Assembly: GCA_022571575.1 (NCBI GenBank)
Contig: JACZXN010000010.1
Location: 1 to 15,732, forward strand
Direction: 5' to 3'
DNA from: Chloroflexota bacterium
GTDB lineage: Bacteria > Chloroflexota > Dehalococcoidia > UBA3495
DNA: 15,732 nucleotides
Position 1 is the stretch's first letter. Each line of letters opens with the position of its first letter. The notes beneath the pieces are model-generated. The model made no database searches and was not told the origin of the DNA. It was given only the letters and a program-made list of their open reading frames with translations. Of this stretch, positions 36-15,732 are shown piece by piece. A program made the position numbers and the translations under genes.

Positions 36-1715
36 ATGGCTAAACACCGACTATTCCGAGTTCCGTTTCTCATCGCTGTCGTAGCGGCAATGACGCTCAT
101 CGTGGCGGTTGCCTGCGGCTCTTCCGCAGAGCCGACCGCCGCGCCGCTAGCGCCCAGCAGCGGGTCATCATCGACCAGCGTACCGGCGCCCACGGCCGTT
201 CCGGATACCTCGGTGCCGGCGGCGCCTACACAACAAGCCAAGCTGACCATCGCCATCACAGACATGGGCAACGAGACCCCAAGCGTGTGGCAGGAATTCG
301 CCTTCGGAAAGGCGTACATGCGCTTCCTCTACGACGCGTTGACCGGCACCAATGATGCGGGTGAAGTGGACAAAAACAACGGCGCTGCCAAAGAGTGGTT
401 CATGTCTCCCGACGCCAGGGATTGGACCTTCATCTTGAGGGACAACATCAAGTTCCATAACGGCGACACGCTCACCGCCGAAGACGCCAAATTCTCGATC
501 GCCTTGACTAGCAGCGAGGATTCGACCGCCTCGTATGCAGGCACCATCCGAGCCGCCATCGCCGATCCATCCCAAATCACCGTGGTTTCTCCAACCGAAT
601 TGCATATTCGCACCTCCACGGCTTCAGGGTTCTTGAACTGGTTTATCTCGGACATTCAGGGTGTCGAGGGCTTGATTCAACCCAAGAACTACACAGAGTC
701 CGTAGGCAACGACGAATTCGCCAAGAATCCCGTCGGCAGCGGTCCCTATAAATGGGTGGACCAGCGGAAGGGCGACTTCATGGAGATGGAGGCGGTTGAG
801 GACCATTGGAGAGATGGAACTTCCAAATTCAAGACCGTCCTCTGGCGCATCATCCCGGAAGAGAGCACCCGGATAGCAGCCCTCAAGGCTGGCGAGGTGG
901 ACGTCATATCCGTCTCCCGCGAGCGGGCGCCCCAATTGAGAGCTGATGGTCTCAACATCTTCAGCAAGGAAGGCGCCAGCGTAAACGGCCTCTATTTCCA
1001 CGAGCAATGGCGTGACAATTCAATCTGGAAGGACATCAATGTCAGAGAAGCCTTTAACCTGGCCATAAACCGCGAAGAGATCTGCGAATTCGTTTTCGCT
1101 GGACAATGCACCCCTGCTGCGGTCTATCCTTGGCCGGACATCGCCCCCGGCACCGACAATTCTCTGAAGGCCTTGCCGTTCGATCCGGAAAGAGCCAAGC
1201 AGCTACTGGATGCGTCGGACTACGCTGGGGAAGAGGTAGCCATCCGGTCGTACCCCAGGGCTGACGTACCCGAGGGACCCCGGTTCATCGAGGCCGTCGC
1301 CGCTTATCTGACCGATATCGGCGTCAACGTGAAGATAATCCCCACCGAGTACGCGTCCTACCGGCAGGAAAGGCTGGCCCACACTCTGGATAACGGAAGT
1401 GGCTACCTGGCGGCCCCCAACCGGCCGTTGGCGGGCTTCGTGGGGCTGATGCGGGTGCTGAACCATACCGAGGGCGCATTCACCTCCACCAATGACCCGG
1501 AGATCGACCGCCTCATCGAAGCCATGGAGGCGGCGATAGCGCCGGCCGACGTGGAGCAAGCCAGCATCAAGCTGACTCGGTACATGTACGACCAATACTC
1601 GCATCTCACCTGCTGCAACATGAACATATCCTACGCGACCAACGACAGGATCGAGGCCTGGGACCTGGGTAAGAGGGTCTGGGACGACGGCTTCACCAAT
1701 CTGTTCCAGCGCTAA
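36..1715 (+). CDS. ABC transporter substrate-binding lipoprotein, family 5 (peptide/nickel/opine type)
   Basis: Extracytoplasmic solute-binding protein (559 aa) that would capture a substrate and deliver it to the two permeases encoded downstream. Residues 1-27 form a lipoprotein signal: basic start, hydrophobic core and lipobox ending A-V-A-C27. A Ser/Thr/Pro/Ala-rich linker runs from about 28 to 68, as is common in Chloroflexota lipoproteins, so the protein is probably membrane-anchored by lipid. The family-5 signature WTFILRDNIKFHNGD lies at about 130-144 and the binding fold extends to the C-terminus. The ATG at 36 is preceded by a purine-rich AGGAAATGAGGGGG stretch. Family-5 proteins bind oligopeptides, nickel, opines, glutathione and other compounds, so the substrate cannot be read from sequence. 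Family assignment is firm and substrate unknown. The promoter lies left of the window. Confidence 0.93.
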   Translation: MAKHRLFRVPFLIAVVAAMTLIVAVACGSSAEPTAAPLAPSSGSSSTSVPAPTAVPDTSVPAAPTQQAKLTIAITDMGNETPSVWQEFAFGKAYMRFLYDALTGTNDAGEVDKNNGAAKEWFMSPDARDWTFILRDNIKFHNGDTLTAEDAKFSIALTSSEDSTASYAGTIRAAIADPSQITVVSPTELHIRTSTASGFLNWFISDIQGVEGLIQPKNYTESVGNDEFAKNPVGSGPYKWVDQRKGDFMEMEAVEDHWRDGTSKFKTVLWRIIPEESTRIAALKAGEVDVISVSRERAPQLRADGLNIFSKEGASVNGLYFHEQWRDNSIWKDINVREAFNLAINREEICEFVFAGQCTPAAVYPWPDIAPGTDNSLKALPFDPERAKQLLDASDYAGEEVAIRSYPRADVPEGPRFIEAVAAYLTDIGVNVKIIPTEYASYRQERLAHTLDNGSGYLAAPNRPLAGFVGLMRVLNHTEGAFTSTNDPEIDRLIEAMEAAIAPADVEQASIKLTRYMYDQYSHLTCCNMNISYATNDRIEAWDLGKRVWDDGFTNLFQR

Positions 1716-1723
1716 ACCGATTC

Positions 1724-1768
1724 AACCTCCCTGGGAGCCGGTCTTTCCCCGGACTTTCCAGGGAGGTT
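1724..1768 (+). promoter_or_regulatory. Intercistronic hairpin between binding-protein and permease genes
   Basis: Perfect 11-bp inverted repeat: AACCTCCCTGG at 1724-1734 pairs with CCAGGGAGGTT at 1758-1768 around a 23-nt loop. It starts 9 nt after the binding-protein stop and ends 42 nt before the permease start. No T-run follows, so a simple intrinsic terminator is unlikely. In comparable operons such hairpins stabilise the upstream message or attenuate readthrough, giving excess binding protein over permease. The structure is seen directly; the role is inferred. Confidence 0.6.
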
Positions 1769-1810
1769 GTGGCATCTAGGGCGCCAGGACCACAAGGGTC
1801 ACGGTAGGCG

Positions 1811-2728
1811 ATGCAGAGATACATAATAAGACGGGTTGGAGAGGCGGTACTGGCCCTCTTCGTGCTCTCCATAATCATCTTTCTCATGGTGCGTCTCACC
1901 GGAGACCCGGCGCTTTTGATGTTGCCGCCCGACGCCGGATTGGATGCCCTGGAGGACCTGAGACGTTCCATGGGCGTGGATAAGCCCCTGATCGTTCAAT
2001 ACGGACGGTTCATTGGGGACTACGCCAGGGGAAGTTTCGGAGAGTCCCTCAGGAGCAAGACTCCGGTCTCAGACCTGGTCAAGGACCGGCTCCCCAACTC
2101 CATCAAGCTGATCGGAGCGGCGTTCCTGATAGTGGTGCTGATCTCAATACCCCTGGGTGTATTGTCGGCGGTCTACAAAGGAACGTGGATCGATACCGTG
2201 AGCACCGGCATAGCGGTATTGGGCCAGGCCATTCCCGTGTTCTGGCTGGGAATGCTGCTGATACAACTGTTTACGGTCCAATTGGGCTGGCTGCCCAGTT
2301 CGGGCATGGGCGGCATCAAGCACTACATCATGCCCGCGTTCAGCTTGGGTTTCTTCACCGTGGCGGCCATCACCCGGTTGCTGCGTTCCAGTTTGCTCGA
2401 GGCGTTGGACAGCGAATACATCAAGCTGGCCCGGATCAAGGGCATCTCCGAGTTCAAAGTGGTCTGGAAACACGGCTTGAGGAACTCCCTGATCAGCGTG
2501 ATCACCCTGGGCGGGATCTACATCGCCATATTGATCACCCTGGGCATCCTGGTGGAGGTCGTGTTCGCCTGGCCCGGGATGGGCCGGCTATTGTTCCAGG
2601 GAATCGTTTTCAGGGATTTCCCGGTGGTCCAAGCAGTGGTGATGATATCGGCTGGCATCGTGATCACCACCAGCTTGCTGGTCGACATCACCTACGCTTA
2701 CCTAGACCCCCGGATCAGGCTTCAGTAG
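1811..2728 (+). CDS. ABC transporter permease, DppB/OppB type
   Basis: Inner-membrane permease subunit (305 aa) that pairs with the next gene to form the channel of a peptide/nickel-class importer. It begins with the typical MQRYIIRRVGEAVLALF first helix. A periplasmic segment follows with GDP at 31-33 and the family hallmark GSFGESL at 74-80. Several hydrophobic helices follow from about 97. The EAA loop that contacts the ATPase is at about 202-226 (EYIKLARIKG, then HGLRNSL). It ends with YAYLDPRIRLQ, the usual C-terminus of this family. Length is normal. The Shine-Dalgarno site is weak (GTAGG before the ATG). The stop is 6 nt before the next start, so the two permeases are translationally linked. 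Confidence 0.95.
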   Translation: MQRYIIRRVGEAVLALFVLSIIIFLMVRLTGDPALLMLPPDAGLDALEDLRRSMGVDKPLIVQYGRFIGDYARGSFGESLRSKTPVSDLVKDRLPNSIKLIGAAFLIVVLISIPLGVLSAVYKGTWIDTVSTGIAVLGQAIPVFWLGMLLIQLFTVQLGWLPSSGMGGIKHYIMPAFSLGFFTVAAITRLLRSSLLEALDSEYIKLARIKGISEFKVVWKHGLRNSLISVITLGGIYIAILITLGILVEVVFAWPGMGRLLFQGIVFRDFPVVQAVVMISAGIVITTSLLVDITYAYLDPRIRLQ

Positions 2729-2734
2729 GAAGAT

Positions 2735-3631
2735 ATGGCTCAAGCGGTAGAAAACGCGGCGATACAACCGGTAAAGGTCAGCCTTTGGCCCAAGGTGCGG
2801 GGCGCCTTCAAAGGCGCGCCGGTGATTCCTCTGACCATCATCGCCGTGTTCATCTTGGCCGCCGCGCTTGCAGACCTGGTCACCGTGCATGACCCATATG
2901 CGGTCAAACTGCCGGACCGTCTGATTCCCCCCTTCTGGTCGGATGGAGGCTCGTTGTCCCATCCATTTGGGACCGACCCTCTGGGCCGCGACATACTCAC
3001 CAGGGTCATCTACGGGGCCCGGGTCTCCATCATCATCTCCGCCATCGCATTGGCCGTCGGTGGTGGTTTCGGGACCCTGATCGGGCTGACATCCGGATAT
3101 TACGGCGGCAAAGTCGATACGCTCCTGATGCGGATGGCCGATATCACTTTGGCCTTTCCGTTGATCTTGTTCGCCATTCTGTTGGTGATGGTGCTGGGCC
3201 CCAGCATGATGAACGTCGTCGTGGCGATATCCTTGGTGCTTTGGGCCCGTTATGCCCGGGTCATCCGGGGGGAGGTCCTAGCCTTGATGCAGCAGGACTT
3301 TATCGGCCGGGCCCGAGTCTCCGGAGCCTCTGATATACGGATCATGTACCGGCATCTTTTACCCAACGTGATGCCCACCCTCATAGTCCTGCTCACGCTG
3401 CAAGTGGGATGGGTCATCATAGTCGAGGCCTCGTTGAGCTTCTTGGGCGCCGGCATCCCGCCCCCCACGCCGGCGTGGGGATCCATGTTGGCGGACGGCC
3501 GGGAGTACGTTTCCACCGCCTGGTGGGTCACCACGGCGCCGGGCGTGGCGATAATGCTGGTGGTCTTGGCCTTCAACCTCTGCGGCGACTGGATGAGGGA
3601 ACGTCTGGACCCCAAACAGCGCAGCATCTAA
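2735..3631 (+). CDS. ABC transporter permease, DppC/OppC type
   Basis: Second permease subunit (298 aa) of the same importer. A cytoplasmic N-terminus of about 28 residues precedes the first helix (about 29-48). The periplasmic loop carries the diagnostic HPFGTDPLGRDILTR at 76-90, and YGARVS follows at 93-98. The EAA coupling loop is at about 188-211 (DFIGRARVSGASD, then RHLLPN). It ends at WMRERLDPKQRSI, typical of the family. The ribosome site TAGGA sits just before the ATG and overlaps the previous gene's stop. No DppD/DppF-type ATPase genes follow: the next genes are on the other strand. The importer must therefore use ATPases encoded elsewhere. Family assignment is firm and substrate unknown. 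Confidence 0.95.
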   Translation: MAQAVENAAIQPVKVSLWPKVRGAFKGAPVIPLTIIAVFILAAALADLVTVHDPYAVKLPDRLIPPFWSDGGSLSHPFGTDPLGRDILTRVIYGARVSIIISAIALAVGGGFGTLIGLTSGYYGGKVDTLLMRMADITLAFPLILFAILLVMVLGPSMMNVVVAISLVLWARYARVIRGEVLALMQQDFIGRARVSGASDIRIMYRHLLPNVMPTLIVLLTLQVGWVIIVEASLSFLGAGIPPPTPAWGSMLADGREYVSTAWWVTTAPGVAIMLVVLAFNLCGDWMRERLDPKQRSI

Positions 3632-3821: not shown

Positions 3822-4394
3822 TCAGGGGCCAGTCAAACCCTGCAGGTGCCGGGCGAACTGGAAGCGGTTCTCCAGCAGGTTGATATCCATGGCGAAGGAG
3901 GGAGGCCCCACCGCCTCGACCTTGGAGACGATGACCGACAGGCCCTCCCGCTCCGATGCCTCGGCGAAAGCCTGTTCAGCGGCCTCAACGGTGTCGGCCC
4001 GGACCACGTGTTCCGCTCCGGCCTTCTCGGCGATTCCGGCCAGGTCGGTGCCCGCGCCGGTGGCCGTGGGGAACCCGCCAACGGACAGCAGGCTCTCGTT
4101 GTCGAAGATCCAATGGATCAGGTTGGGCGGCCGGTAGCGGGCCAGGGTGCTGAGCGACCCCAGGTTCATCAGCACCGAGCCGTCACCGTCCAGCACGGTG
4201 ACCTTCTCTTTGGGCAGGGACACGGCCAGCCCCAGTCCCAGGGACGACGCCAGGCCCATGCCGTGTTCCAGGTAAAAGAAGTTGGGCTGGTGGCCCAGGT
4301 TGTACAGCTCCACCGCCACGGCCCCCATGATGGTCACCACCACCTGTTCTTTCAACCGGGGATAGACCGCCTTCAGCACTTCGGCCCGCAGCAT
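3822..4394 (-). CDS. Thiamine-diphosphate decarboxylase, beta subunit (sulfopyruvate/phosphonopyruvate decarboxylase-like)
   Basis: C-terminal, cofactor-binding half (190 aa) of a split 2-oxoacid decarboxylase, resembling ComE of archaeal sulfopyruvate decarboxylase and the C-terminal half of phosphonopyruvate decarboxylase. The diphosphate/Mg binding motif is GDGS at 70-73, followed 25 residues after GDG by D98-N99, matching the GDG-X(24-27)-N(N) pattern with D replacing the first N. G-A-V at 24-26 and EHGMGLASS at 43-51 are typical of the TPP-binding domain. The start ATG (4394-4392) shares one base with the TGA of the alpha gene (4396-4394). It is preceded by GGGAGGAG inside the alpha coding end, which decides this start and implies coupled, stoichiometric translation. 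The true 2-oxoacid substrate cannot be deduced. Confidence 0.85.
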   Translation of the reverse strand: MLRAEVLKAVYPRLKEQVVVTIMGAVAVELYNLGHQPNFFYLEHGMGLASSLGLGLAVSLPKEKVTVLDGDGSVLMNLGSLSTLARYRPPNLIHWIFDNESLLSVGGFPTATGAGTDLAGIAEKAGAEHVVRADTVEAAEQAFAEASEREGLSVIVSKVEAVGPPSFAMDINLLENRFQFARHLQGLTGP

Positions 4395-4906
4395 CACTCC
4401 TCCCACATCAGCTCCCGGGTGAGCAACAGGGCCACGGGACGCAGCGAACTCTCGGCCAGGGTCTGGGCCTGCTCTACCTCGTACGCCACGGTGGCCGGGT
4501 CGGACAGCTTCCGGTAGATGATGCCCAGGGACTGCAGCAGCGGCTCGGTGACGCGGCCGCCCTCGGTCTGCCACGGGTCCCTTTCGCCCATCTCGCCCCG
4601 GTAGCTGATGACCATCAGCAGGGGGATGCGGTAGAGCTGGGCCACGGAGACGATCCCGTTCACCGAGGTGAGCAGGCCGTGGTTCTGCATCAACATGGCC
4701 GACTTCCGCCCGGCAAAATGGGCGCCGGCCGAGATGCCCACCCCCTCCTCTTCCTTGTTGAGCCGGATCAGGGTCATATCGGGGTCGTCTTCGGCCATCT
4801 GCATGACGTGGACCAGCCAGGTCTCGGGCAAGGCCGATATCAGGCTGATGCCCGCCGATTTCAGGGCCGCGAAAAGAATCTCAGAGTTTTTGAGCGAAAC
4901 GGGCAA
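4394..4906 (-). CDS. Thiamine-diphosphate decarboxylase, alpha subunit (sulfopyruvate decarboxylase ComD-like)
   Basis: N-terminal (pyrimidine-binding) half of the split decarboxylase, about 170 aa. The chain begins with SEILFAALKSAGISLISALPE. It carries NKEEEGVGISAGAHFAG at about 50-66, where a glutamate should activate the thiamine ring, and MQNHGLLTSVNG, matching the MQN(S)G..N segment of ComD proteins. I chose the TTG start at 4906, with GGAGG (4921-4917) 10 nt upstream. A longer frame from TTG 4936 would begin inside the -10 box of the promoter at 4936-4964, and its extra residues look unlike the family. It pairs with the beta gene by a one-base overlap. The genes run divergently from an aryl-CoA ligase, hinting at a 2-oxoacid feeding a CoA-linked pathway; that link is inference. 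Confidence 0.83.
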   Translation of the reverse strand: MPVSLKNSEILFAALKSAGISLISALPETWLVHVMQMAEDDPDMTLIRLNKEEEGVGISAGAHFAGRKSAMLMQNHGLLTSVNGIVSVAQLYRIPLLMVISYRGEMGERDPWQTEGGRVTEPLLQSLGIIYRKLSDPATVAYEVEQAQTLAESSLRPVALLLTRELMWEE

Positions 4907-4916
4907 TGACGGAGCA

Positions 4917-4921
4917 CCTCC
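4917..4921 (-). promoter_or_regulatory. Ribosome binding site deciding the TTG start of the decarboxylase alpha gene
   Basis: GGAGG on the minus strand, 10 nt upstream of the TTG at 4906. No other in-frame start between here and the predicted transcription start has a comparable site. Confidence 0.6.
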
Positions 4922-4935
4922 AGGCAAGTGGGCCA

Positions 4936-4964
4936 ATTGTATGCGCCGGTGCGGGGCCGGTCAA
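4936..4964 (-). promoter_or_regulatory. Sigma-70-like promoter for the decarboxylase genes
   Basis: Minus strand TTGACC (4964-4959), 17-nt spacer, TACAAT (4941-4936). Predicted transcription starts near 4929, giving a short leader of roughly 23 nt to TTG 4906 that contains the GGAGG site. The same hexamer pattern and spacing occur before the luciferase-like gene at 11699-11727. Confidence 0.65.
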
Positions 4965-4999
4965 CGGATGAGAAAGTCCGTTATTGCCGGGCCGATCGA

Positions 5000-5029
5000 T
5001 TGCCCGCCCCGCGCTCGTGCCGATATACT
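5000..5029 (+). promoter_or_regulatory. Possible promoter for the aryl-CoA ligase operon
   Basis: TTGCCC (5000-5005), 18-nt spacer, TATACT (5024-5029), 37 nt before the ligase ATG. The -10 hexamer is good and the -35 is partial. It lies back to back with the minus-strand promoter at 4936-4964, so both could be controlled from one short divergent region. Confidence 0.45.
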
Positions 5030-5066
5030 GCACCCACCAACCGCCTAACCAGCCTCGGGAGAAGCC

Positions 5067-6353
5067 ATGCAGCCAGCCGTTTGGGACCCCGTCGAGACCT
5101 TCTCCCGTGAGGAGATGGATCGGCGCCAAGTGGAGCGGCTGCGGAACTGCGTCCGGCGGGTCAAAGAACAGGTGCCCTTCTACCGCGAACGGCTGGCCGG
5201 CGTTGAGCCCGGCAGCATCCAGTCCCTGGCCGACCTGGCCCGCCTGCCCTTCACCAACAAGCAGGACCTGAGGGACAACTACCCCTTCGGCCTTTTCGCC
5301 GTTGCAATGGCCGACGTGGTGCGCATCCACGCCTCCAGTGGCACCACCGGCAAGCCCACGGTGGTCGGCTATACGGCCAACGATATCGAGATGTGGGCCG
5401 GCCTGGTGGCGCGGGCCCTCGCCCTGGCCGGCGTGACCAAGGATGACGTCGTCCAGAATTCCTACGGGTACGGCTTGTTCACCGGCGGGCTGGGCCTGCA
5501 TTACGGCGCGGAAAAACTGGGGGCGGCGGTGGTGCCTATCTCCTCCGGCAACACCGCGCGGCAGGTCATGCTGCTTCAGGATTTCGGCGCCACGGTGCTT
5601 TTCGCCACCCCATCCTACGCCCTGGTGCTGGCGGAGGCCGCCGACGAGGCGGGGTTCGACCTGCGTTCGGGGCCGCTGCGAGTGGGCATCTTCGGCGCGG
5701 AGCCCTGGTCGGAGCAGATGCGCGTTGAGATCGAGTCCCGCCTGGGGATCGCCGCCCTGGACATCTACGGCCTGTCCGAGGTCATCGGGCCCGCCGTGGC
5801 CATGGAGTGCCTCCATAAAACGGGGATGCACATCGCCGAGGACCACTTCATCCCCGAGATCATCGACCCCGACACCTCGGAGCCGTTGCCCTTGGGAACG
5901 CCCGGCGAACTGGTCTTCACCTGCGTCACCAAGGAAGCCCTGCCCCTGATCCGCTACCGCACTCACGACCTGGCCCGCCTCCTGCCCGGCGGCTGCCCCT
6001 GTGGCCGCACCACGGTCCGGATGGAGAAGGTGCTTGGCCGCAGCGACGATATGCTGATCATCCGGGGCGTAAACGTGTTCCCCTCTCAGATCGAGACGGT
6101 GCTTCTGGGCCTGGGCCAGGTTGAACCCCACTACCAGTTGGTGGTGGAACGGGGCGCCAACCACACCGACGACCTGGAGGTCCGGGTGGAGTCGGCGGGC
6201 GACCCAAGTCAACACGGTGATCTGGAGAGCAGGCTGAAGGCCAATCTGCGGAGCGCCCTGGGCATCGGCTGCACCGTTACCATACTTGGGCCCGGAGAGA
6301 TAGCCCGCAGTGAGGGCAAGGCGGTCCGGGTCATCGACAACCGCCGCATCTGA
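5067..6353 (+). CDS. paaK: Phenylacetate-CoA ligase family protein (aryl-acid:CoA ligase, AMP-forming)
   Basis: Adenylate-forming ligase (428 aa) that would activate an aromatic or related acid with ATP and CoA, in the cytoplasm. Length fits the compact PaaK branch. The phosphate-binding loop SSGTTGKP is at 90-97 and YGLSE, the adenine/ATP motif, at 234-238. RYRTHDL at 296-302 holds the ribose-binding Asp, and the C-P-C-G-R-T segment at 310-315 is typical of PaaK proteins. The hinge region GRSDDMLIIRGVNVFP is at 324-339. The C-terminal catalytic lysine is K418 in EGKAVRV. The start ATG follows GGGAGA. The crotonase-family gene lies 52 nt downstream on the same strand. No phenylacetyl-CoA epoxidase (paaABCDE) genes are in the window, so the natural substrate may differ from phenylacetate; the symbol denotes family, not proven substrate. 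Confidence 0.88.
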   Translation: MQPAVWDPVETFSREEMDRRQVERLRNCVRRVKEQVPFYRERLAGVEPGSIQSLADLARLPFTNKQDLRDNYPFGLFAVAMADVVRIHASSGTTGKPTVVGYTANDIEMWAGLVARALALAGVTKDDVVQNSYGYGLFTGGLGLHYGAEKLGAAVVPISSGNTARQVMLLQDFGATVLFATPSYALVLAEAADEAGFDLRSGPLRVGIFGAEPWSEQMRVEIESRLGIAALDIYGLSEVIGPAVAMECLHKTGMHIAEDHFIPEIIDPDTSEPLPLGTPGELVFTCVTKEALPLIRYRTHDLARLLPGGCPCGRTTVRMEKVLGRSDDMLIIRGVNVFPSQIETVLLGLGQVEPHYQLVVERGANHTDDLEVRVESAGDPSQHGDLESRLKANLRSALGIGCTVTILGPGEIARSEGKAVRVIDNRRI

Positions 6354-6405
6354 CCGCACGCGGTCAACCCGGGCACCGGCAACGGAAGGCAAACGGAGGC
6401 AAAAG

Positions 6406-7176
6406 ATGGAACTGGAAACCATGAGATATGAAGCGGACGGCGACCTCATCCGCCTGACGCTGGACCGGCCCCAGGTACTGAACGCCGTGAACTACCAGGC
6501 CACGCTGGAACTGCGCCAGGCGGCCCAGGCCATCCACGACGACCCCCACGCCAGAGCCGTGCTCATCCGGGGCGCCGGCCGGGCCTTCTGCACCGGCATC
6601 GACCTCAAGGAACTGGCGGCGGAGCAGACTCCACACGACTACTTTTACCAATGGGACCAGGCCCTGCGGCTGTTGGAACGGGCCGACAAGCTGATCATCT
6701 GCGCCATCCACGGGTTCGCCCTTGGCGGGGGGCTGCAGCTCCCCCTGGCCTGCGACATACGCATCGCCACCGAGGACGCCGTCCTGGGGCTGCCGGCGGC
6801 CAGGGAGGGGTTCATACCGGGACTGGGCACCTACCGCCTGCCCCGCTACATCGGCCTTGGCCGGGCCAAGCGCATGGCCATCTCCGGCGAGAACATCGAC
6901 GGACTGGAAGCGTTGCGCATCGGGCTGGTGGACTACGCCGTCAAACCCGAGGACTTCGACCGGGAGGTTGAATCTCTGACCCAGCGGTACCTGGCCCTAA
7001 GTTCCGAGGGCGCCCGGCAGACCAAGCTCATGCTTTCGGCCTACCAGGACCTGCCCCACGGCCAATTCTTTGAGGAGTACCTGCACCGCCAGTCCATCGC
7101 CATCGCTTCTCCCGACCACGACGAAGCCATGAACGCCTACCGGGAGCAACGGGACCCGGTGTACAAATCACGCTGA
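6406..7176 (+). CDS. Crotonase (enoyl-CoA hydratase/isomerase) family protein with altered catalytic positions
   Basis: Acyl-CoA-binding crotonase-fold protein (256 aa). The two oxyanion-hole segments are clear: AFCTGIDLKEL at 60-70 and HGFALGGGLQL at 102-112. ACDIRIA at 115-121 and the IPGLG turn at 137-141 follow as usual. Aligned by eye to mitochondrial crotonase, the first catalytic glutamate (PE motif) becomes A131 in GLPAAREG and the second falls on R156 in GRAKRMAISG. A plain hydratase mechanism is therefore doubtful. E134 is nearby and might substitute, or the protein may be an isomerase, hydrolase or thioesterase-like member. The ATG at 6406 has GGAGG 6 nt upstream; the frame is open further up but those residues lie over the ligase's end. 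It is probably cotranscribed with the ligase and acts on its CoA product. Confidence 0.88.
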   Translation: MELETMRYEADGDLIRLTLDRPQVLNAVNYQATLELRQAAQAIHDDPHARAVLIRGAGRAFCTGIDLKELAAEQTPHDYFYQWDQALRLLERADKLIICAIHGFALGGGLQLPLACDIRIATEDAVLGLPAAREGFIPGLGTYRLPRYIGLGRAKRMAISGENIDGLEALRIGLVDYAVKPEDFDREVESLTQRYLALSSEGARQTKLMLSAYQDLPHGQFFEEYLHRQSIAIASPDHDEAMNAYREQRDPVYKSR

Positions 7177-7274: not shown

Positions 7275-10200
7275 CTACCGCGGATTCTTCTCGGTCATCG
7301 TAAGAAACGCTCGCTCGAGGTCCCAGACGGAAATCGGTTTCTCAAGCACGAGATTCGACAAGGCGTTCAGGAAGGAACGGGTCCTGGCGTTCGCCAGGTC
7401 CCCGGTGATGAAAATGACCTTGTCCGCCAAGCTGGGGTAGGACGAACTGATTCGCTGGAAGAGTTCTTGGCCGTCTGTACCGGCCATTCTCAGGTCTAGC
7501 AAGACGCAATCGAAATGTTGGTCCTGTAGTTTTCGCCAGGCTTCTTCACCGTCGGCTGCCTGGTCAACTGTGTGATGGTTTCGCTGGAGAAGCCTGACCA
7601 AGATGTTTCGAAGGTCCGGCTCGTCGTCCACCACCAACACGTGTAAATGGGATCTAGACTCCCTCTCCGGTAGATCTTCGCCGTCCGCGGGTTCCGCGGT
7701 TCGGATGGCCGCCGCTGGTGGAACCTCGATGTGGAACGTGGCCCCCGTCAGGCCGTCGCTCTCCGCCCACAACTTGCCACCCAACTGGGCAATGATTCCG
7801 TAGGAAACACTCAGGCCCAAGCCGGTGCCCTCGCCCACGTCTTTCGTCGTGAAAAACGGGTCGAACACCTTCGACAGATTTTCAGCGGGGATCCCCGGCC
7901 CGTCATCGGAGATGCTGATCCGGGTCGAACCGTCAATCTCCCGGACCGTCACCGAGATGTGGCCACGTCCGTGGGCTGCAACGCAGGCCTGTTCGGCATT
8001 GTTTAGGATATTCACGATCACCTGGGTCATCAGTTGTTCGTCGATCTTGATCTCAGCAAGGTCAAATGGAACACTGGCCGAAGCCGAGATGTTGTTGATC
8101 CGGAAATCGTGGCTCTTGAGTTCCATACAACGTTCAACGAATTCTCTGGCGGACACCGTTGAAATCTCCGGGGAGGACTTCCTGGCGAATTGCAACAGGT
8201 TTCGTACTATGGCCGCGGCTCGTTTCGCCTGGTCTGAGATCACCTGTAGATCGGTGATTACCGAATCAGGAAGGTCTTGTCCCAGCAGCACTTCGGAATA
8301 GAGATTTATGCTTGCCAGTGGATTATTGATCTCATGGGCCACGCCAGAGGCCAATTCCCCGATGGAAAGCAGCCGTCCGGCTTCGGTGAACCTTTCTAAT
8401 TCCGACTTTCGATCGGTGATGTCCTCCGCGATCCCACTCATTCGGTACACGTTGCCATTGCCATCCCTGATTGGGAAGCCGCGGCTATGGATCCACCGCA
8501 CCAAGCCATCCCGCTTGACGATCCTATACTCAATATCAACCTCGCCCGTCTCGGACGATCGTGCGATGTCATGCCGGATACGGGGCCGGTCTTCCGGATG
8601 AATACGCTCCATCCACAGGCCGATGTCGTCGTAGACGTCAACGGCGGGGATATCCCAGATATCCTCAAATTTCGGACTGGCATAGATCAACCGGCGGGGC
8701 TCCAGCTCAATGAGCCAAAATACACCCCGGATGCTATCCGCGATCTGACGAAACCGCATCTCGCTTTCTGAGAGGGCCAACTGGGCCCGGTTCCTCTCGA
8801 GGGTTATCTTGAAGGTGGCGAGGGCGCCGGCCAGCAGATTCCCGATTCGGTCCGCCGTGACCATATCCTCGTTGCTGTATTCCCCTTCGAACCTGGTGAA
8901 GACAAGGGTGCCGATTATCGTCTCCTCGAACACCAGCGGCACGGCCATCGCCGACCGGTACCCTTGTTCAAACACCAATTTGGAGATTGGCAACTGGCCG
9001 GATACAAGCCGCGGATCGTCGAAATTTATTATCTGGCCTTTCCTAGACCGGATAACTTCCCCGGTGATCGACCCCGCATAGGGCTGTCCGGGATTTTTGG
9101 CGAACTGAAACTCCGGGTCGTGTAAGAATTCGTTGAATCCGTGGCTGAACGTCTCGCTTTCAAGGTCTACGGCCGTGAAACCAAGCCGGTCCAGAGGGAT
9201 GATGTTGGCAAGCGCTGATTTCAGCGCGGCGAGTGCATCGGCTCCGGCCATGGGCGAACTCAGGATACGTCCGATATTGGCTTCCGCTTCAAGGATGGCC
9301 CTATTCTTGTTCAGCTCCCGTTCGGCTTGGACCTTATATTCCTGTAAATTGAAATCCGCGAACGCACCGGCCACCAAACTCCCCAGCCGTTCGGCTTTGG
9401 TCAAGTCCTTCCGGGAAAAGGGGCGTGAACCCCGGTTAAATCCCATGGTGCCGATGACTTGGTCTCCAACGATCAGCGGTACCCCCAAGAAATACTGCTG
9501 TCCGGCGGAGATGAAGGGTCCCGCATGCGGGTACTTGGGCTCCATCCCATCACGGTCTTCCAGTAGAAAACGTTGGCCGGTCTGGGACCGGACAACCAAC
9601 TCGATGGCCGAGCCATCGATCTGCTGGATTTTCCCGATGGGATAATCGGGCACCGTTTGCCCAAAGAGAAATTCGGTCTTAAAGGTGTTCTCTTGAAGAT
9701 CGACGGAACCTAACGCCAGGCGTTCGAAATCAATTATCTTTGCCGCCTCCGCCGCAAACCTCTCAAAGACATCGGGGCCGACTAGGGGAGAGCTGACGAT
9801 ACGGCCGATGTTGGCTTCCACTTCATTTTCTTCTTGGAGTTCCGCGTTCGCTATCATCATCCCAACCACGGCTGCGATGGCGACCACCACCCGCACAGTA
9901 TCCTCTTGATAATGGCCCAGCAATTCGGAGGCGAAGCTGAGGGTACCCAGCATTTCTCCATCGACCAGGACCGGGAGGATTAAAGCGGACTTAACGCCCG
10001 AGTCCAGATACCCTTGAATCGGGGTTTCAGTGGCAGGATAGTCGTTGACTACGACGGGGGTTCCGGCATTGAGATCCCTGGCCGGCAGGGCGGCGCTTAC
10101 CGAGACGACGAGTTTGACCGATTCGGGCGGGACCAGGTGGTTGTGGGAAGCGACGAGGCCTAATGTGGAATTTTCCGAGTCCAATTCACGCAGAGTGACC

Positions 10201-10337
10201 AATTCCGAGCCGGTGAGATCAGCCAGCACCGCCAAGACCGAATCACATTTTTCCAGGAACGGGAGCCGCCCGGTTAGGATCTCAGTGATTGCGACCAGAG
10301 AGTTTAATTCTTCGGGCCGTTGCTGGGAGATGGACAT
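7275..10337 (-). CDS. Hybrid sensor histidine kinase, GAF-GAF-GAF-PAS-HisKA-HATPase-REC
   Basis: Large signalling kinase (1020 aa) with no obvious membrane helix, so probably cytoplasmic. Order: GAF 1 (about 10-165), GAF 2 (about 175-330), GAF 3 (about 350-510), PAS with a PAC tail (about 525-645, ending GIAEDITDRK). The dimerisation/phosphoacceptor helix has H668 in GVAHEINNPLASI. The ATPase domain has N-box NILNNAEQA (776-784), DDGPGIP (811-817), DPFFTTK (826-832) and GTGLGLS (837-843). The receiver domain (about 897-1015) has acidic D904/D905, phosphoacceptor D948, T978 and K1000, all intact. GAF 2 and GAF 3 open with nearly the same segment, EANIGRI(V/L)SSP, 178 residues apart, indicating duplication. 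The ligand is unknown. No separate response regulator is adjacent, so output goes through a distant protein. The Shine-Dalgarno site is weak. Confidence 0.93.
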   Translation of the reverse strand: MSISQQRPEELNSLVAITEILTGRLPFLEKCDSVLAVLADLTGSELVTLRELDSENSTLGLVASHNHLVPPESVKLVVSVSAALPARDLNAGTPVVVNDYPATETPIQGYLDSGVKSALILPVLVDGEMLGTLSFASELLGHYQEDTVRVVVAIAAVVGMMIANAELQEENEVEANIGRIVSSPLVGPDVFERFAAEAAKIIDFERLALGSVDLQENTFKTEFLFGQTVPDYPIGKIQQIDGSAIELVVRSQTGQRFLLEDRDGMEPKYPHAGPFISAGQQYFLGVPLIVGDQVIGTMGFNRGSRPFSRKDLTKAERLGSLVAGAFADFNLQEYKVQAERELNKNRAILEAEANIGRILSSPMAGADALAALKSALANIIPLDRLGFTAVDLESETFSHGFNEFLHDPEFQFAKNPGQPYAGSITGEVIRSRKGQIINFDDPRLVSGQLPISKLVFEQGYRSAMAVPLVFEETIIGTLVFTRFEGEYSNEDMVTADRIGNLLAGALATFKITLERNRAQLALSESEMRFRQIADSIRGVFWLIELEPRRLIYASPKFEDIWDIPAVDVYDDIGLWMERIHPEDRPRIRHDIARSSETGEVDIEYRIVKRDGLVRWIHSRGFPIRDGNGNVYRMSGIAEDITDRKSELERFTEAGRLLSIGELASGVAHEINNPLASINLYSEVLLGQDLPDSVITDLQVISDQAKRAAAIVRNLLQFARKSSPEISTVSAREFVERCMELKSHDFRINNISASASVPFDLAEIKIDEQLMTQVIVNILNNAEQACVAAHGRGHISVTVREIDGSTRISISDDGPGIPAENLSKVFDPFFTTKDVGEGTGLGLSVSYGIIAQLGGKLWAESDGLTGATFHIEVPPAAAIRTAEPADGEDLPERESRSHLHVLVVDDEPDLRNILVRLLQRNHHTVDQAADGEEAWRKLQDQHFDCVLLDLRMAGTDGQELFQRISSSYPSLADKVIFITGDLANARTRSFLNALSNLVLEKPISVWDLERAFLTMTEKNPR

Positions 10338-10659: not shown

Positions 10660-11619
10660 CTATACCTTGGGCCAGACCTCCAAGGCCAGGACCTCTTGCA
10701 TGGCGATGATGCCGCTGGGGTCGCCTACCCTGGAGCTGGCCACGCCGCCCAAGTCGAAGATCAGGTTGGTGACGCCCAGGGCCTCGTAGGCGCGGATGTC
10801 CTCGGCAACCTTTTCGGGCGGGCCTGCGAAGGGAGTCCCGTCCGACCCGTCCGAGTCCGGATCGAAGGTGGACACCCGGAACGCAACCTCCACGTCCTTG
10901 GGGTCTCGTCCCTCGCGTTGGGTGCGGGCCGCCAGCCGGTCCATGGACGCCTTGAGCAGCTCCGGGGTTCCCAGCGGAAAATTGGGGTTGGTCCCCAGGG
11001 GATGCCAGGCGTTGCCCATGCGGGCGGCCCGCCTGATGGCCCGGTTGCTCTCGCCTCCCACCCAGATGGGGATGTGGGGCTTCTGCACCGGCTTGGGCAG
11101 GAAATGGATGTTGGAGAAATTAACGTACTTGCCCTCAAAGGAGGGGTTGTCCGACGTCCAAAGCTCGATGAACGCCCGGATATATTCGTCGGTCACCGCC
11201 CCCCTTTCGTCGAAGGAAGGCAGGTCCAGGGTCTCAAACTCCTCCCGCAGCCAGCCCGCCCCGACACCCAGAGTCACCCGCCCATTGGAAAGCACGTCCA
11301 GGGTGGCTAGGGCCTTGGCGGCGACGATGGGGTTGCGGTGGGGCACTATCATCACGCTGGTGCCCAGGCGCAGGCGGGTGGTCTGGCCCGCGATGAAGGC
11401 CAGCACCGTAAGCTGGTCAAGGCAGGCCCCGCCGATGGTGCCTGGGTGGACGGCCTGTTCGTTGTAGGGATAGGGCGAAGAGATGTCCCTGGGGAAGACG
11501 ATATGGTCAGGACAGACCACCATGTCGAATCCCAGGTCCTCACCCCGGCGGACCAGTGCCCGCATGGACTCGGGCGCCGCAAGCGGCCCGCTTCCCGGTA
11601 TGGTGAACCCGTATTTCAT
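10660..11619 (-). CDS. Luciferase-like monooxygenase family protein (probable F420- or FMN-dependent oxidoreductase)
   Basis: Bacterial-luciferase-fold flavin enzyme (319 aa), normal length for the F420-dependent LLM class. Diagnostic segments are the N-terminal strand MKYGFTIPGSGPL, EDLGFDMVVCPDHIVFP at 27-43, RLRLGTSVMIVPHRNP at 82-97, LDVLSNGRVTLGVGAGW at 107-123 and PIWVGGESNRAIRRAAR at 184-200. The ATG at 11619 is preceded by CGGAGAG; extending the frame further upstream would add 36 residues unlike the family and run through the promoter. It is divergent from boxC with 173 bp between the starts. The class includes hydride-transfer and monooxygenase enzymes with either flavin; sequence alone does not fix cofactor or substrate. 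Such genes are strongly expanded in SAR202 Chloroflexota, as known from published genome surveys. Confidence 0.88.
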   Translation of the reverse strand: MKYGFTIPGSGPLAAPESMRALVRRGEDLGFDMVVCPDHIVFPRDISSPYPYNEQAVHPGTIGGACLDQLTVLAFIAGQTTRLRLGTSVMIVPHRNPIVAAKALATLDVLSNGRVTLGVGAGWLREEFETLDLPSFDERGAVTDEYIRAFIELWTSDNPSFEGKYVNFSNIHFLPKPVQKPHIPIWVGGESNRAIRRAARMGNAWHPLGTNPNFPLGTPELLKASMDRLAARTQREGRDPKDVEVAFRVSTFDPDSDGSDGTPFAGPPEKVAEDIRAYEALGVTNLIFDLGGVASSRVGDPSGIIAMQEVLALEVWPKV

Positions 11620-11698
11620 GGCTGTGCTCTCCGTTGGTTCGGATCGGCCGCCAGCCCCTCTAGATCCAGGCAGGGCCGGTAGGCCAAGGGCCGGTGGA

Positions 11699-11727
11699 AT
11701 TGTATTGACGGTCCCCATGGCTGTCAA
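11699..11727 (-). promoter_or_regulatory. Strong sigma-70-like promoter for the luciferase-like gene
   Basis: Minus strand TTGACA (11727-11722, perfect consensus), 17-nt spacer, TACAAT (11704-11699). Transcription would start near 11692, with a leader of about 73 nt before the ATG at 11619. Confidence 0.7.
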
Positions 11728-11792: not shown

Positions 11793-13505
11793 ATGGCCGA
11801 CACAGAGACGGCGCCGGGTCAACCGACCGGCTTCCAGGCTGGGTTCATAGTGGATTTCGCCACCAGCCCCGCCCAGTACAAACACTGGCGGCTGAGTGTC
11901 GATGGCCGGGTGGCGCGGCTGAGTCTGGACGTCCAAGAAGACCAGCCGCTGGTCCCCGGTTATGAGCTCAAGCTCAATTCCTACGACCTGGGCGTGGACA
12001 TCGAGCTCTACGACGCGGTGCAGCGCCTGCGGTTCGAGCACCCGGAGGTCGGCGCGGTGGTGATCACCTCGGCCAAGGACCGGGTGTTCTGCGCCGGGGC
12101 CAACATCAAGATGCTGGGCCAGTCGGGCCACGGGTTCAAGGTGAATTTCTGCAAGTTCACCAACGAGACCCGGAACGCCATGGAAGACGCCTCGGCGAAC
12201 TCGGGCCAGACCTACATCTGCGCCGTCAACGGCCCGGCCGCGGGCGGCGGTTACGAGTTGGCCCTGGCCTGTGAACACATCATCTTGATCGACGACGGCT
12301 CCAGCACGGTCTCCCTTCCCGAGCTGCCCCTGCTGGCGGTGCTGCCCGGCACCGGCGGCCTGACCCGTCTGGTGGACAAACGCAACGTCCGCCACGACCA
12401 CGCCGACTTTCTCTGCACCACCTCGGAAGGGGTTCGGGGCAGCCGGGCCCTGAAGTGGCGGCTGGTGGATGAACTGGCGCCCCGCTCCAACTTCGAGCAG
12501 GCCGTCGCCGAGAGGGCGTCGGAGATCGCCCAGCGGTCCGACCGGCCCGTATCCGGCCGGGGCATTACCCTTACGCCCTTGAAACGCCAGATCGGCGCGG
12601 ACCTGGTCCGCTACGACAACATCCAGATCGACCTTGACCGGGAGCTTGGAGTGGCCAATATCCTGATCAAAGGCCCCTCTGAAGCCCCGCCGGCCGACGT
12701 TTCGGGCATCCACGCCGCCGGCGACTCGTTCTGGCCGTTGGCCCTGGCCCGTGAGTTGGACGACGCCATACTGCACCTGAGGCTCAACGAGAGCGAGGCC
12801 GGGACCTGGGTGTTCCGCACCCAGGGCGACAACAGCCTCGTGGCGGCCTATGACAAAAGCCTCTTGGACAATGCCTCCGACTGGCTGGTGAGGGAGATAA
12901 CCCTCTACCTGAAGCGCACGCTGAAACGCCTGGATGTAACCTCACGGTCGCTGGTTGCGCTGATCGAGCCTGGGAGTTGTTTCACTGGGACCCTGCTGGA
13001 ATTGGTCCTCGGCGCCGACCGGAGTTACATGCTGGATGGGACATTCGAGGACGACCCGGACTCACCCCATGTCCCGGCGGCGCTCCGGCCCACCGGCATG
13101 AACTTCGGCCCCCTGCCGATGGTCAACGGCCTCACCCGGTTGGAGGGCAGGTTCTTGGGTCAGCCCAGCGCGGTCGACAACCTTCGAGAAAAGACCGGGA
13201 CCGATCTGGACGCGCAAGCCGCGCTGGACCTGGGGCTGGTTACTTTCATCCCCGACGACATCGACTGGGAGGACGAGGTGCGCCTGGCCCTGGAAGAGCG
13301 GGCCAGCTTCTCACCCGACGCGCTAACCGGCATGGAGGCCAGCCTTCGGTTTGGCGGGCCCGAGACCATGGAGAGCAAGATCTTCGGCCGGCTTAGCGCC
13401 TGGCAGAACTGGATATTCCAGCGCCCAAACGCCTCCGGCGACCAGGGGGCGCTGCGGCTATACGGCACCGGCGCCAAGACTCGATTCGACAAGGGCCGGG
13501 TATGA
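11793..13505 (+). CDS. boxC: BoxC, 2,3-epoxybenzoyl-CoA dihydrolase (benzoyl-CoA-dihydrodiol lyase)
   Basis: Ring-opening enzyme of aerobic benzoate breakdown: it hydrolyses 2,3-epoxybenzoyl-CoA to 3,4-dehydroadipyl-CoA semialdehyde and formate. The 570 aa fit the characteristic double-length crotonase architecture of BoxC. The N-terminal half has DRVFCAGANIKMLG at 96-109 and NGPAAGGGYELALACEH at 146-162 (oxyanion hole). VSLPELPLLAVLPGTGG at 173-189 follows, with E177 at the usual crotonase glutamate position. The C-terminal half has ALIEPGSCFTGTLLELVLGADRS at 389-411 in two adjoining parts, a segment I recognise from BoxC proteins. I chose ATG 11793, 9 nt after GGGGGA; the frame is open back to TTG 11760 but that codon overlaps the -10 box. 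boxB follows 21 nt later. Identity is firm. Confidence 0.95.
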   Translation: MADTETAPGQPTGFQAGFIVDFATSPAQYKHWRLSVDGRVARLSLDVQEDQPLVPGYELKLNSYDLGVDIELYDAVQRLRFEHPEVGAVVITSAKDRVFCAGANIKMLGQSGHGFKVNFCKFTNETRNAMEDASANSGQTYICAVNGPAAGGGYELALACEHIILIDDGSSTVSLPELPLLAVLPGTGGLTRLVDKRNVRHDHADFLCTTSEGVRGSRALKWRLVDELAPRSNFEQAVAERASEIAQRSDRPVSGRGITLTPLKRQIGADLVRYDNIQIDLDRELGVANILIKGPSEAPPADVSGIHAAGDSFWPLALARELDDAILHLRLNESEAGTWVFRTQGDNSLVAAYDKSLLDNASDWLVREITLYLKRTLKRLDVTSRSLVALIEPGSCFTGTLLELVLGADRSYMLDGTFEDDPDSPHVPAALRPTGMNFGPLPMVNGLTRLEGRFLGQPSAVDNLREKTGTDLDAQAALDLGLVTFIPDDIDWEDEVRLALEERASFSPDALTGMEASLRFGGPETMESKIFGRLSAWQNWIFQRPNASGDQGALRLYGTGAKTRFDKGRV

Positions 13506-13526
13506 TCGATCGCCTGAGGGTAAAGC

Positions 13527-14966
13527 ATGACCATCGAACATTCCAACATCGACTACACAGACATCATCCCCAACAACGTGGGCCTGGCCGGCAACCGGCG
13601 TTTGCAACGGGCGTTGGAAGCCTGGCAGCCCAACTACATCAAGTGGTGGCGGGAACTGGGTCCCGACGGCAGTTCCGGTTTCGATGTCTACCTGCGGACG
13701 GCCATCAGTGTTGAGAGAGATGGTTGGGCCAATTTCGGCTTCGTCAAGATGCCGGATTACCGCTGGGGCATCTTCCTGGCCAAGCCCGACCCGGACCGCA
13801 GGATACCATTCGGCGACCACGAGGGTGAGCCGGTCTGGCAGGACGTGCCCGGCGAATACCGGGCCCCACTGCGCCGCCTGATCGTAACCCAAGGAGACAC
13901 CGAGCCGGCCTCGGTTGAGCAGCAGCGCCGCCTGGGCCTGACCTGTCCCTCACTCTACGACCTGCGCAACCTGTTCCAGATCAACGTCGAAGAGGGCCGC
14001 CACCTGTGGGCCATGGTCTACCTGCTCCACGCCTACTTCGGCCGGGACGGCCGGGAAGAGGCCGAGATGTTGTTGGAGCGCCATTCGGGGGACGCCGACA
14101 AGCCCCGGATACTGGGCGCCTTCAACGAGCCCACTCCCAACTGGCTTTCCTATCTGATGTTCACCTATTTCACCGACCGGGACGGCAAGTATCAATTGGC
14201 CGCCCTCGCCGAGTCGGGCTTCGACCCGCTGGCCCGCACCTGCCAGTTCATGCTCACCGAAGAGGCCCACCACATGTTCGTCGGCGAGACTGGCATCACG
14301 CGGGTGACCCAACGCACCTGCGAGGTGATGAAGGAGGTCCAGAGCGACGACCCCAAACGGGTCCGGGAGGGCGGGGCCATCGACTTGGACACCATCCAGA
14401 AATTCATAAATCACCATTACTCCCTTTCCGTGGACCTCTTCGGTCAGGAGATCTCCACCAACGCCGCCACCTATTTCAACTCCAGCCTGAAGGGCCGTTT
14501 CCAGGAAGCCCGGCTGGAGGGCGACCACCGCCTCACCGACAGCCTCTGGCCGGTGCACCTGGTCCAAGATGGGCGCATCGTCGTGGAAGACCGTCCCGCC
14601 CTGAGCGCGGTGAACGAGCGGTTGAGGGACGATTACATCAAGGACTCTCAACGGGGTGTTGACCGTTGGAACCAGGTGCTGGAGTCCCATGGGGTGGGAT
14701 TCCGGTTCATGCTGCCCCACCGGTTCTTCAACCGCCACATCGGAACATCCGCGGGCATCGACGTGACGCCCCAGGGCGAGGTCATAGCCGAGGCCGAGTG
14801 GCAGGCCAGGCGGGATGATTGGCTGCCCACCGGCGAAGACCAGTCGTTTGTCGCTTCGCTGATGCACCGGGTGGCCGAACCGGGGAAGATCGCCGCCTGG
14901 ATCGCCCCTCCGGTCCGGGGTATCAACGGCAAGCCCTGGGACTACGAATATGTCAGGTTTAACTAG
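13527..14966 (+). CDS. boxB: BoxB, benzoyl-CoA 2,3-epoxidase oxygenase component
   Basis: Diiron oxygenase (479 aa, normal length) that inserts one O2-derived oxygen atom into benzoyl-CoA to give the 2,3-epoxide, using electrons relayed by BoxA. Two E-x-x-H motifs are present: E156-G-R-H159 in NVEEGRHLWAM and E246-A-H-H249 in MLTEEAHHMF. E126 lies 30 residues before E156, and D217 in TYFTDRDG sits between the two motifs. This reproduces the ligand layout I know for BoxB (Glu, Glu-x-x-His, acidic residue, Glu-x-x-His), so the metal site looks complete. The start ATG has GAGGG upstream. The gene sits 21 nt after boxC and 27 nt before the ligase gene, clearly one operon. The electron-donating BoxA is not in this window. 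Confidence 0.95.
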   Translation: MTIEHSNIDYTDIIPNNVGLAGNRRLQRALEAWQPNYIKWWRELGPDGSSGFDVYLRTAISVERDGWANFGFVKMPDYRWGIFLAKPDPDRRIPFGDHEGEPVWQDVPGEYRAPLRRLIVTQGDTEPASVEQQRRLGLTCPSLYDLRNLFQINVEEGRHLWAMVYLLHAYFGRDGREEAEMLLERHSGDADKPRILGAFNEPTPNWLSYLMFTYFTDRDGKYQLAALAESGFDPLARTCQFMLTEEAHHMFVGETGITRVTQRTCEVMKEVQSDDPKRVREGGAIDLDTIQKFINHHYSLSVDLFGQEISTNAATYFNSSLKGRFQEARLEGDHRLTDSLWPVHLVQDGRIVVEDRPALSAVNERLRDDYIKDSQRGVDRWNQVLESHGVGFRFMLPHRFFNRHIGTSAGIDVTPQGEVIAEAEWQARRDDWLPTGEDQSFVASLMHRVAEPGKIAAWIAPPVRGINGKPWDYEYVRFN

Positions 14967-14993
14967 AATTCCTCCGGTCGAAGGAGCGATGCG

Positions 14994-15732
14994 ATGCCGG
15001 ACCACAGCGTAACCGTCGATTATTCGACCACCCCATCCCAGATCGAGTTCTCGCCGGTCTTCAACATCGCGGTCCACCTGATCGACCGTCACGTGGCGGA
15101 GGGACGGGGCTCCTACCCGGCAATCATTAACGCCGACGCCAGGGACGACGCCGGAGAGCAGGCCGAGAAACAGGTCACCTACCAGCAACTGGCCGAGCGG
15201 GTCAACCGGTGCGGGAACCTGCTCAGTTCCCTGGCGGCGGAACCCGGCGGCCGCATTCTGATGGTGGTTAAAGACTGTCCCGAGTTTTTCTACCTATTCT
15301 GGGGGGCCATCAAGGCGGGACTGGTGCCCGTGCCCTTGAACACGCTGCTCCGGGCCGACGACTACCGGTTCATGATTGAAGATTCGGCCTGCGTGGGACT
15401 GGTCTACTCCCCCGAATATCAAACTGAGGTGGCCCCAGCCGTGGCGGCCTCGGACCACCAGCCGGGGTTCATCCTCTGCACCGAGGGCCCCAGCGGGCTG
15501 GCCAACCTGATGGAGGGGTACGCCCCGATCCTGGAACCGGCCCCAGCCACGGCGGATTCGGAGTGCTTCTGGCTCTACTCCTCGGGCTCGACCGGCCGGC
15601 CCAAAGGCGCCGTGCACCGCCACCGGGACATCGCCGCCACCTGTGTCCACTACGCCGTGGACACCCTGGGAATGACCAAAGAGGACATCTGTTTCTCGGC
15701 CGCCAAGTTGTTCTTCGCCTACGGTCTGGGCA
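14994..15732 (+). CDS. bclA: Benzoate-CoA ligase (partial, C-terminus beyond the window)
   Basis: First 246 residues of an AMP-forming ligase that makes benzoyl-CoA from benzoate, ATP and CoA, supplying BoxB. The ATG at 14994 follows AAGGAG by 7 nt; another ATG 5 nt upstream is out of frame. The N-terminus (F-N-I-A-V-H-L-I-D-R-H at 23-33) is the benzoate-CoA ligase type. The phosphate-binding loop WLYSSGSTGRPKGAVHRHRD spans 193-212. CFSAAKLFFAYGLG at 233-246, just before the edge, is a segment characteristic of benzoate-CoA ligases rather than acyl-CoA synthetases in general. Reading continues open through base 15732, so the gene is cut by the window, not broken. It is the third gene of the box operon. 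Fluoro-, amino- or hydroxybenzoate preferences cannot be judged from this part. Confidence 0.93.
   Translation, partial: MPDHSVTVDYSTTPSQIEFSPVFNIAVHLIDRHVAEGRGSYPAIINADARDDAGEQAEKQVTYQQLAERVNRCGNLLSSLAAEPGGRILMVVKDCPEFFYLFWGAIKAGLVPVPLNTLLRADDYRFMIEDSACVGLVYSPEYQTEVAPAVAASDHQPGFILCTEGPSGLANLMEGYAPILEPAPATADSECFWLYSSGSTGRPKGAVHRHRDIAATCVHYAVDTLGMTKEDICFSAAKLFFAYGLG

Follow-up and report, generated by a model that had tools for sequence, protein, structure and literature searches.

Can a SAR202-type member of the Chloroflexota open benzoyl-CoA by aerobic epoxidation, and what would then reduce its BoxB? The question is posed by the window, meaning the whole stretch of 15,732 nucleotides analysed here, which ends in boxC, boxB and the start of a benzoate-CoA ligase gene and in which the named reductase is missing. 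The box reactions are established for characterised homologues. Going by the gene families present, in this host the ligase would convert benzoate to benzoyl-CoA, the diiron protein BoxB would combine benzoyl-CoA with O2 and two electrons to give 2,3-epoxybenzoyl-CoA, and BoxC would open the ring with loss of formate, yielding 3,4-dehydroadipyl-CoA semialdehyde. Our reading of the sequences is that a SAR202-type Chloroflexota (Dehalococcoidia) probably carries this aerobic box core and apparently runs it without the canonical BoxA and BoxD. The window contains the following genes:

36-3631, + strand: ABC importer, with substrate-binding protein (36-1715; PF00496, 220 bits) and permeases (1811-2728 and 2735-3631; named by reading the sequence, without a profile scan)
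3822-4574, - strand: TPP-dependent decarboxylase, beta-type subunit (TIGR03297, 130.7 bits, and TIGR03846, 124.6 bits, both under cut-off; PF02775)
4394-4936, - strand: TPP-dependent decarboxylase, alpha-type subunit (TIGR03845, 130.5 bits, under the cut-off of 147.95)
5067-6353, + strand: PaaK-like aryl-CoA ligase (TIGR02155, 557.3 bits, under the cut-off of 646.3)
6406-7176, + strand: enoyl-CoA hydratase/isomerase (PF00378, 157.5 bits), conserved in SAR202-order loci
7275-10337, between the hydratase and LLM genes: hybrid histidine kinase with three GAF stretches and a PAS domain
10660-11727, - strand: LLM-class (F420-type) oxidoreductase, divergent to boxC (TIGR03619, 254.5 bits, cut-off 166.9)
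11793-13505, + strand: boxC, 2,3-epoxybenzoyl-CoA dihydrolase, 570 aa (TIGR03222, 900.9 bits, cut-off 712.3)
13527-14966, + strand: boxB, benzoyl-CoA 2,3-epoxidase diiron subunit, 479 aa (TIGR03225, 823.6 bits, cut-off 499.1)
14994-15732, + strand: benzoate-CoA ligase family gene, cut by the contig end (TIGR02262, 200 bits, profile positions 3-219)

Scanning genomes with BoxB turned up 13 loci. Eight, at 79-92% identity, come from MAGs whose titles read Dehalococcoidia, Chloroflexi or SAR202 cluster, and two of these (L012 and L013) carry only part of BoxB; the remaining five, at 61-66%, belong to MAGs of Polyangiaceae, Gammaproteobacteria, Polarisedimenticola and Acidobacteria. The eight genomes share a single order, which comprises three further BoxB genomes and is referred to below as the SAR202 order after G002, titled SAR202 cluster bacterium.

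The identities of boxC, boxB and the benzoate-CoA ligase gene, read by the initial annotation from motifs and spacing, are confirmed as real at the level of sequence families. BoxC and BoxB exceed their curated NCBIfam cut-offs by wide margins, and the ligase fragment (14994-15731 matched), which scores under the full-length TIGR02262 cut-off of 375.25, is backed by full-length orthologues in L002, L006 and L101 with 608-614 bits on the same profile (all three scanned). The best solved match of BoxC is PDB 2w3p (697.5 bits, nearly full length), and its identity to the 11 other SAR202-order loci is 71-90% in ten and 64% in L107. BoxB aligns to PDB 3per without gaps over nearly its full length (725 bits) and keeps all six positions that we take to be the diiron ligands, E120, E150, H153, D211, E240 and H243 in 3per numbering, as E126, E156, H159, D217, E246 and H249 (an offset of +6). 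The genes are closely spaced, with 21 bases between boxC and boxB and 27 between boxB and the ligase gene. The ligase lies 3' of boxC-boxB in the window and in each of the nine other SAR202-order loci long enough to show it (L001-L006, L100, L101 and L107), with a gap of about 1.4 kb between boxB and the ligase in L006.

Compared with known systems, the window has BoxB, BoxC and a benzoate-CoA ligase family gene in common with the Azoarcus evansii/Burkholderia box set (BoxABC, BoxD and ligase). In Mycetohabitans, boxC likewise lies directly upstream of boxB, but boxA occupies the place where the window has the ligase. The phenylacetyl-CoA epoxidase PaaABCDE is a related family, to which the window BoxB has a weak match (PF05138, PaaA_PaaC, 29.7 bits); BoxB, however, is a longer single protein with an equivalog family of its own, and none of the ten window proteins scanned came out as PaaE.

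According to the initial annotation, boxA and boxD should lie beyond the right end of the window. The contig very likely stops where the window does, as the database copy of its kinase sits on a contig of exactly 15,732 bases. The expectation was not borne out in relatives: the Azoarcus evansii/Burkholderia set has both, whereas in the 11 BoxB genomes of the SAR202 order no protein scores over the cut-off of either family. For BoxA, tested with TIGR03224 (cut-off 459.2) in BoxB-bearing genomes, the count was zero in both subsets of the order (0/8 and 0/3) and in the window; the best score in the order was 26.4 bits, over only the first 73 profile positions, which are taken to be the ferredoxin part. 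BoxA was likewise not over the cut-off in the five other Chloroflexota or in the four Acidobacteria-type and Polyangiaceae MAGs, and was found in 4 of 17 Gammaproteobacteria-class BoxB genomes (0 of 1 plus 4 of 16); in one of them, G721, it lies on a different contig from the boxB found first. The scores are well separated, with the four positives at 537-740 bits and the next genome, G255, at 141.7. Overall, 4 of 37 BoxB genomes have BoxA, and its absence from the other 33, together with the reduced box set in SAR202, is the observation most worth keeping. We considered the missing BoxA as a mark of a Chloroflexota branch and rejected this, 12 of the 16 Gammaproteobacteria-class genomes also being without it. 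On the BoxB tree, BoxA presence requires five changes over 38 scored rows, five of which carry BoxA (one of them, Mycetohabitans, by annotation). Proteobacterial box clusters without BoxA have already been reported (PMC10803450). The G255 match is a BoxA-like protein in an acidobacterial BoxB genome (L043, G255:C56:12284-13114; 30% identity), far below the cut-off and possibly an alternative reductase.

For BoxD, tested with NF008868 (cut-off 444), the best score in the SAR202-order BoxB genomes was 145.9 bits, and G005 and G241 had no match at all. Seven of 24 genomes overall passed, including two other Chloroflexota (G413 and G561), with a cut-off that 2 of 14 control genomes also pass. Three of the eight places over this cut-off are open frames of 688-698 residues that could be PaaZ, and without such frames G837 and G767 would not be counted as BoxD-positive.

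What could then supply the electrons? A PF00175 reductase is present in all 11 SAR202-order BoxB genomes (13 matches, one each in nine genomes and two each in G004 and G241), a presence that says nothing specific because 10 of 14 control genomes also match. Open frames were read for eight of the 13 loci, and three were scanned with profiles. Two of the three are Fpr-like on NF008178, at 85.4 bits (G001) and 92.7 bits (G004), under the cut-off of 390; the second G004 copy resembles flavohaemoprotein and BenC reductase domains, and four more of the eight frames look Fpr-like by eye. As a positive control, the same search picked up the BoxA of G754 with 50.6 bits. None of the 11 genomes has a PF00175 reductase on the boxB contig except G003, where the two are 1.9 Mb apart. 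The six neighbours of boxB scanned in Gammaproteobacteria-class loci and one other-Chloroflexota locus included no named BoxA- or PaaE-type reductase at E <=1e-40, a threshold at which weak reductase matches would stay hidden. The same was true of ten ORFs of L002 and L006 at E <=1e-10; since the DNA is rich in GC, some of the scanned neighbour ORFs could be shadow frames. The most likely substitute for BoxA would be a separate ferredoxin with the Fpr-like ferredoxin-NADP reductase of the genome, and that for BoxD a general aldehyde dehydrogenase. We lean slightly towards a widespread box branch consisting of ligase, BoxB and BoxC only, in which BoxB would take electrons from another donor in SAR202 and in most sampled BoxB genomes, and in which, in SAR202, the semialdehyde would be handled by an enzyme other than BoxD.

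The alternative that survives best, which we consider unlikely, is that the substrate of the enzymes is a different aryl-CoA, for example 2-aminobenzoyl-CoA or a substituted benzoyl-CoA, and that different chemistry downstream accounts for the lack of BoxA and BoxD. The lack of both over cut-off in all 11 genomes would fit, as would the second, PaaK-like ligase in the cluster. The L002 ligase is also closest in the PDB to anthranilate-CoA ligase 4wv3, by the small margin of 437.5 bits against 434.8 for benzoate-CoA ligase, and the substrate may differ from benzoate because the ligase family also includes anthranilate-CoA ligases. However, BoxB and BoxC stand far above their equivalog cut-offs, the alignment of BoxB to 3per is free of gaps, and the absence of BoxA alone is no pointer to a changed substrate, since most of the Gammaproteobacteria-class BoxB genomes share it.

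We regard it as far less probable that BoxA and BoxD are present in the cells but lie in unassembled parts of the draft genomes. These genomes are MAGs whose completeness is not given, and because ten of the 11 are in many pieces the absence is firm only for G003, where the box genes lie on a 4.0-Mb contig with neither BoxA nor BoxD, the strongest single negative. Yet the count is zero of 11 for each protein, and the Mycetohabitans BoxA used as a query had no match in loci L001-L006. In L002 the place past the ligase is also taken by other genes, namely a TRAP binding protein, two TldD/PmbA-type proteases and an alcohol dehydrogenase, relatives of some of which occupy the same place in L001 and L005.

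That the box segment is a proteobacterial contaminant or chimera is scarcely credible: BoxB passes its cut-off in only 10 of 250 genomes of the SAR202 order (one more copy is cut by a contig end), but the idea is nearly refuted by Chloroflexota MAGs with separate titles in which the genes around box stand in the same order, and is opposed by supported SAR202-order clades in the BoxB and BoxC trees and by a window GC of 0.617, within the 0.579-0.628 of L002, L003, L006 and L012.

Judged by its genes, the contig belongs to a Chloroflexota host of the SAR202/Dehalococcoidia type, as the initial annotation had proposed. The compared order, comprising the ABC importer, the TPP pair, the PaaK-like ligase, the hydratase, the LLM gene, boxC, boxB and the ligase, recurs in L002, L003 and L012, with most genes at 80-97% identity and the importer order retained in all three; L012 stops inside boxB, with its ligase outside the view. 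Identity is lower for the binding protein of L002 (75%) and for the kinase in L003, a partial match at 59%. A search with kinase residues 1-500 gave 32 rows, one of them the protein of the window itself, and the six named rows were Chloroflexi bacterium (three), SAR202 cluster bacterium (two) and a weak Acidimicrobiia match (one, E 4.4e-4). Both the kinase and the synteny point to SAR202, so the host assignment does not depend on the box genes alone. The window yielded no tRNA and no Rfam match at the gathering score, and thus offers no RNA marker for taxonomy.

Seven SAR202-order loci (L002, L003, L006, L012, L013, L100 and L101) have the TPP pair, the PaaK-like ligase and the hydratase (3822-7176) grouped upstream of box. 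None of these genes meets a listed NCBIfam cut-off: the ligase gene fails that of the phenylacetate-CoA ligase PaaK equivalog, and the hydratase, possibly a lower-pathway hydratase, reaches that of none of the 25 listed families (of 73). The start of the hydratase is the ATG at 6406, while the profile scans and the synteny comparison used 6403. The kinase seems to be a variable insertion into a block that is conserved in other respects, because among the SAR202-order loci only L003 matches it, and only in part. The LLM gene lies beside box at 65-93% identity in seven of the nine other SAR202-order loci that show the position (L001, L002, L003, L004, L012, L013 and L101), the exceptions being L006, with no match, and L100, with a match of only 37%; L005 and L107 start too near boxC to be judged and are outside the nine. 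In view of these two exceptions, the LLM gene was set aside as an electron donor of BoxB.

Trees of BoxB and BoxC, a check proposed with the initial annotation, place the window within known Chloroflexota sequences. These are annotated rather than characterised, so the refuting outcome named with that annotation is reached only by half. In the BoxB tree (48 rows) the window belongs to a clade of 19 rows with support 99/94, made up of 11 SAR202-order rows including the window and eight proteins chosen from the best 120 database matches. The BoxC tree (40 rows) has a clade of 11 SAR202-order rows with support 98/96. Both trees are midpoint-rooted, and support at the deepest forks of BoxC is weak (45/28). 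Five BoxB proteins of other Chloroflexota (L102-L106) group with the actinobacterium Nonomuraea (99/94), and a BoxB tree joining them to the SAR202 clade is rejected (p-AU 2.7e-5); BoxC agrees in part, four of the five grouping with Nonomuraea (100/99) and L102 standing elsewhere on a weak branch. There are thus at least two BoxB lineages within the Chloroflexota, which suggests transfer. The earlier suggestion of gene transfer therefore gains some support at the phylum level, for transfer in either direction. Outside the SAR202 clade in both trees, and with the longest BoxB branch, lies L107 (G241:C194), a 4.6-kb boxC-boxB-ligase contig from a 1.7-Mb MAG of the SAR202 order, which may be a contaminant or a second transfer.

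The presence of BoxB in Chloroflexota, put forward earlier as possibly new, is already on record. The window BoxB has at least 8000 protein relatives, all at E <=1e-20, the total being a lower bound. Among the best 120 of these are BoxB proteins so named from Chloroflexi bacterium and Dehalococcoidia bacterium MAGs at 86-89% identity, in whose clade the window falls; the best named one, at 89%, is not the same strain. Two metagenome proteins in the same 120 are 99% identical to the window BoxB. Since Chloroflexota BoxB is already in the databases, nothing about the case is unusual in kind; the pathway is of a known type, and its host is one about which little has been described.

SAR202 is described as ubiquitous in the ocean, with a proposed gain of a wide range of oxidisable organic compounds (PMC10444878); passages of PMC9088039 and PMC6123686 cover benzoate and phthalate genes and ring dioxygenases of SAR202 and its kin without naming box. 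In Arctic Ocean metagenomes, BoxB (K15512) is one of the abundant markers of aromatic degradation (PMC9789639); section 9 of that paper names mainly Alphaproteobacteria as mid-depth carriers of aromatic genes, though its figure may show Chloroflexi for BoxB. In the literature passages searched, we found no description of box genes in SAR202. A CoA-dependent epoxidation would give SAR202 another entry for aromatic carbon.

Beyond the SAR202 order, BoxB passed its cut-off in 6 of 400 genomes drawn from the phylum (including G001 of the SAR202 order), with weaker matches below the cut-off in 27 more, and in 17 of 369 genomes of the class of the Gammaproteobacteria MAG G252, which was chosen because it bears BoxB and is counted among the 17. 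Two Gammaproteobacteria-class loci, L112 (G708) and L114 (G912), have the same boxC-boxB-ligase order, with BoxA not over cut-off. No match to BoxB was found in the viral contigs scanned, and the plasmid search returned only Mycetohabitans, Nonomuraea and Embleya, the first two of which were used as outgroups. The Nonomuraea record (L042, NZ_LT559118.1), which carries boxB and boxC, is labelled plasmid I; its size of 11.85 Mb suggests a chromosome.
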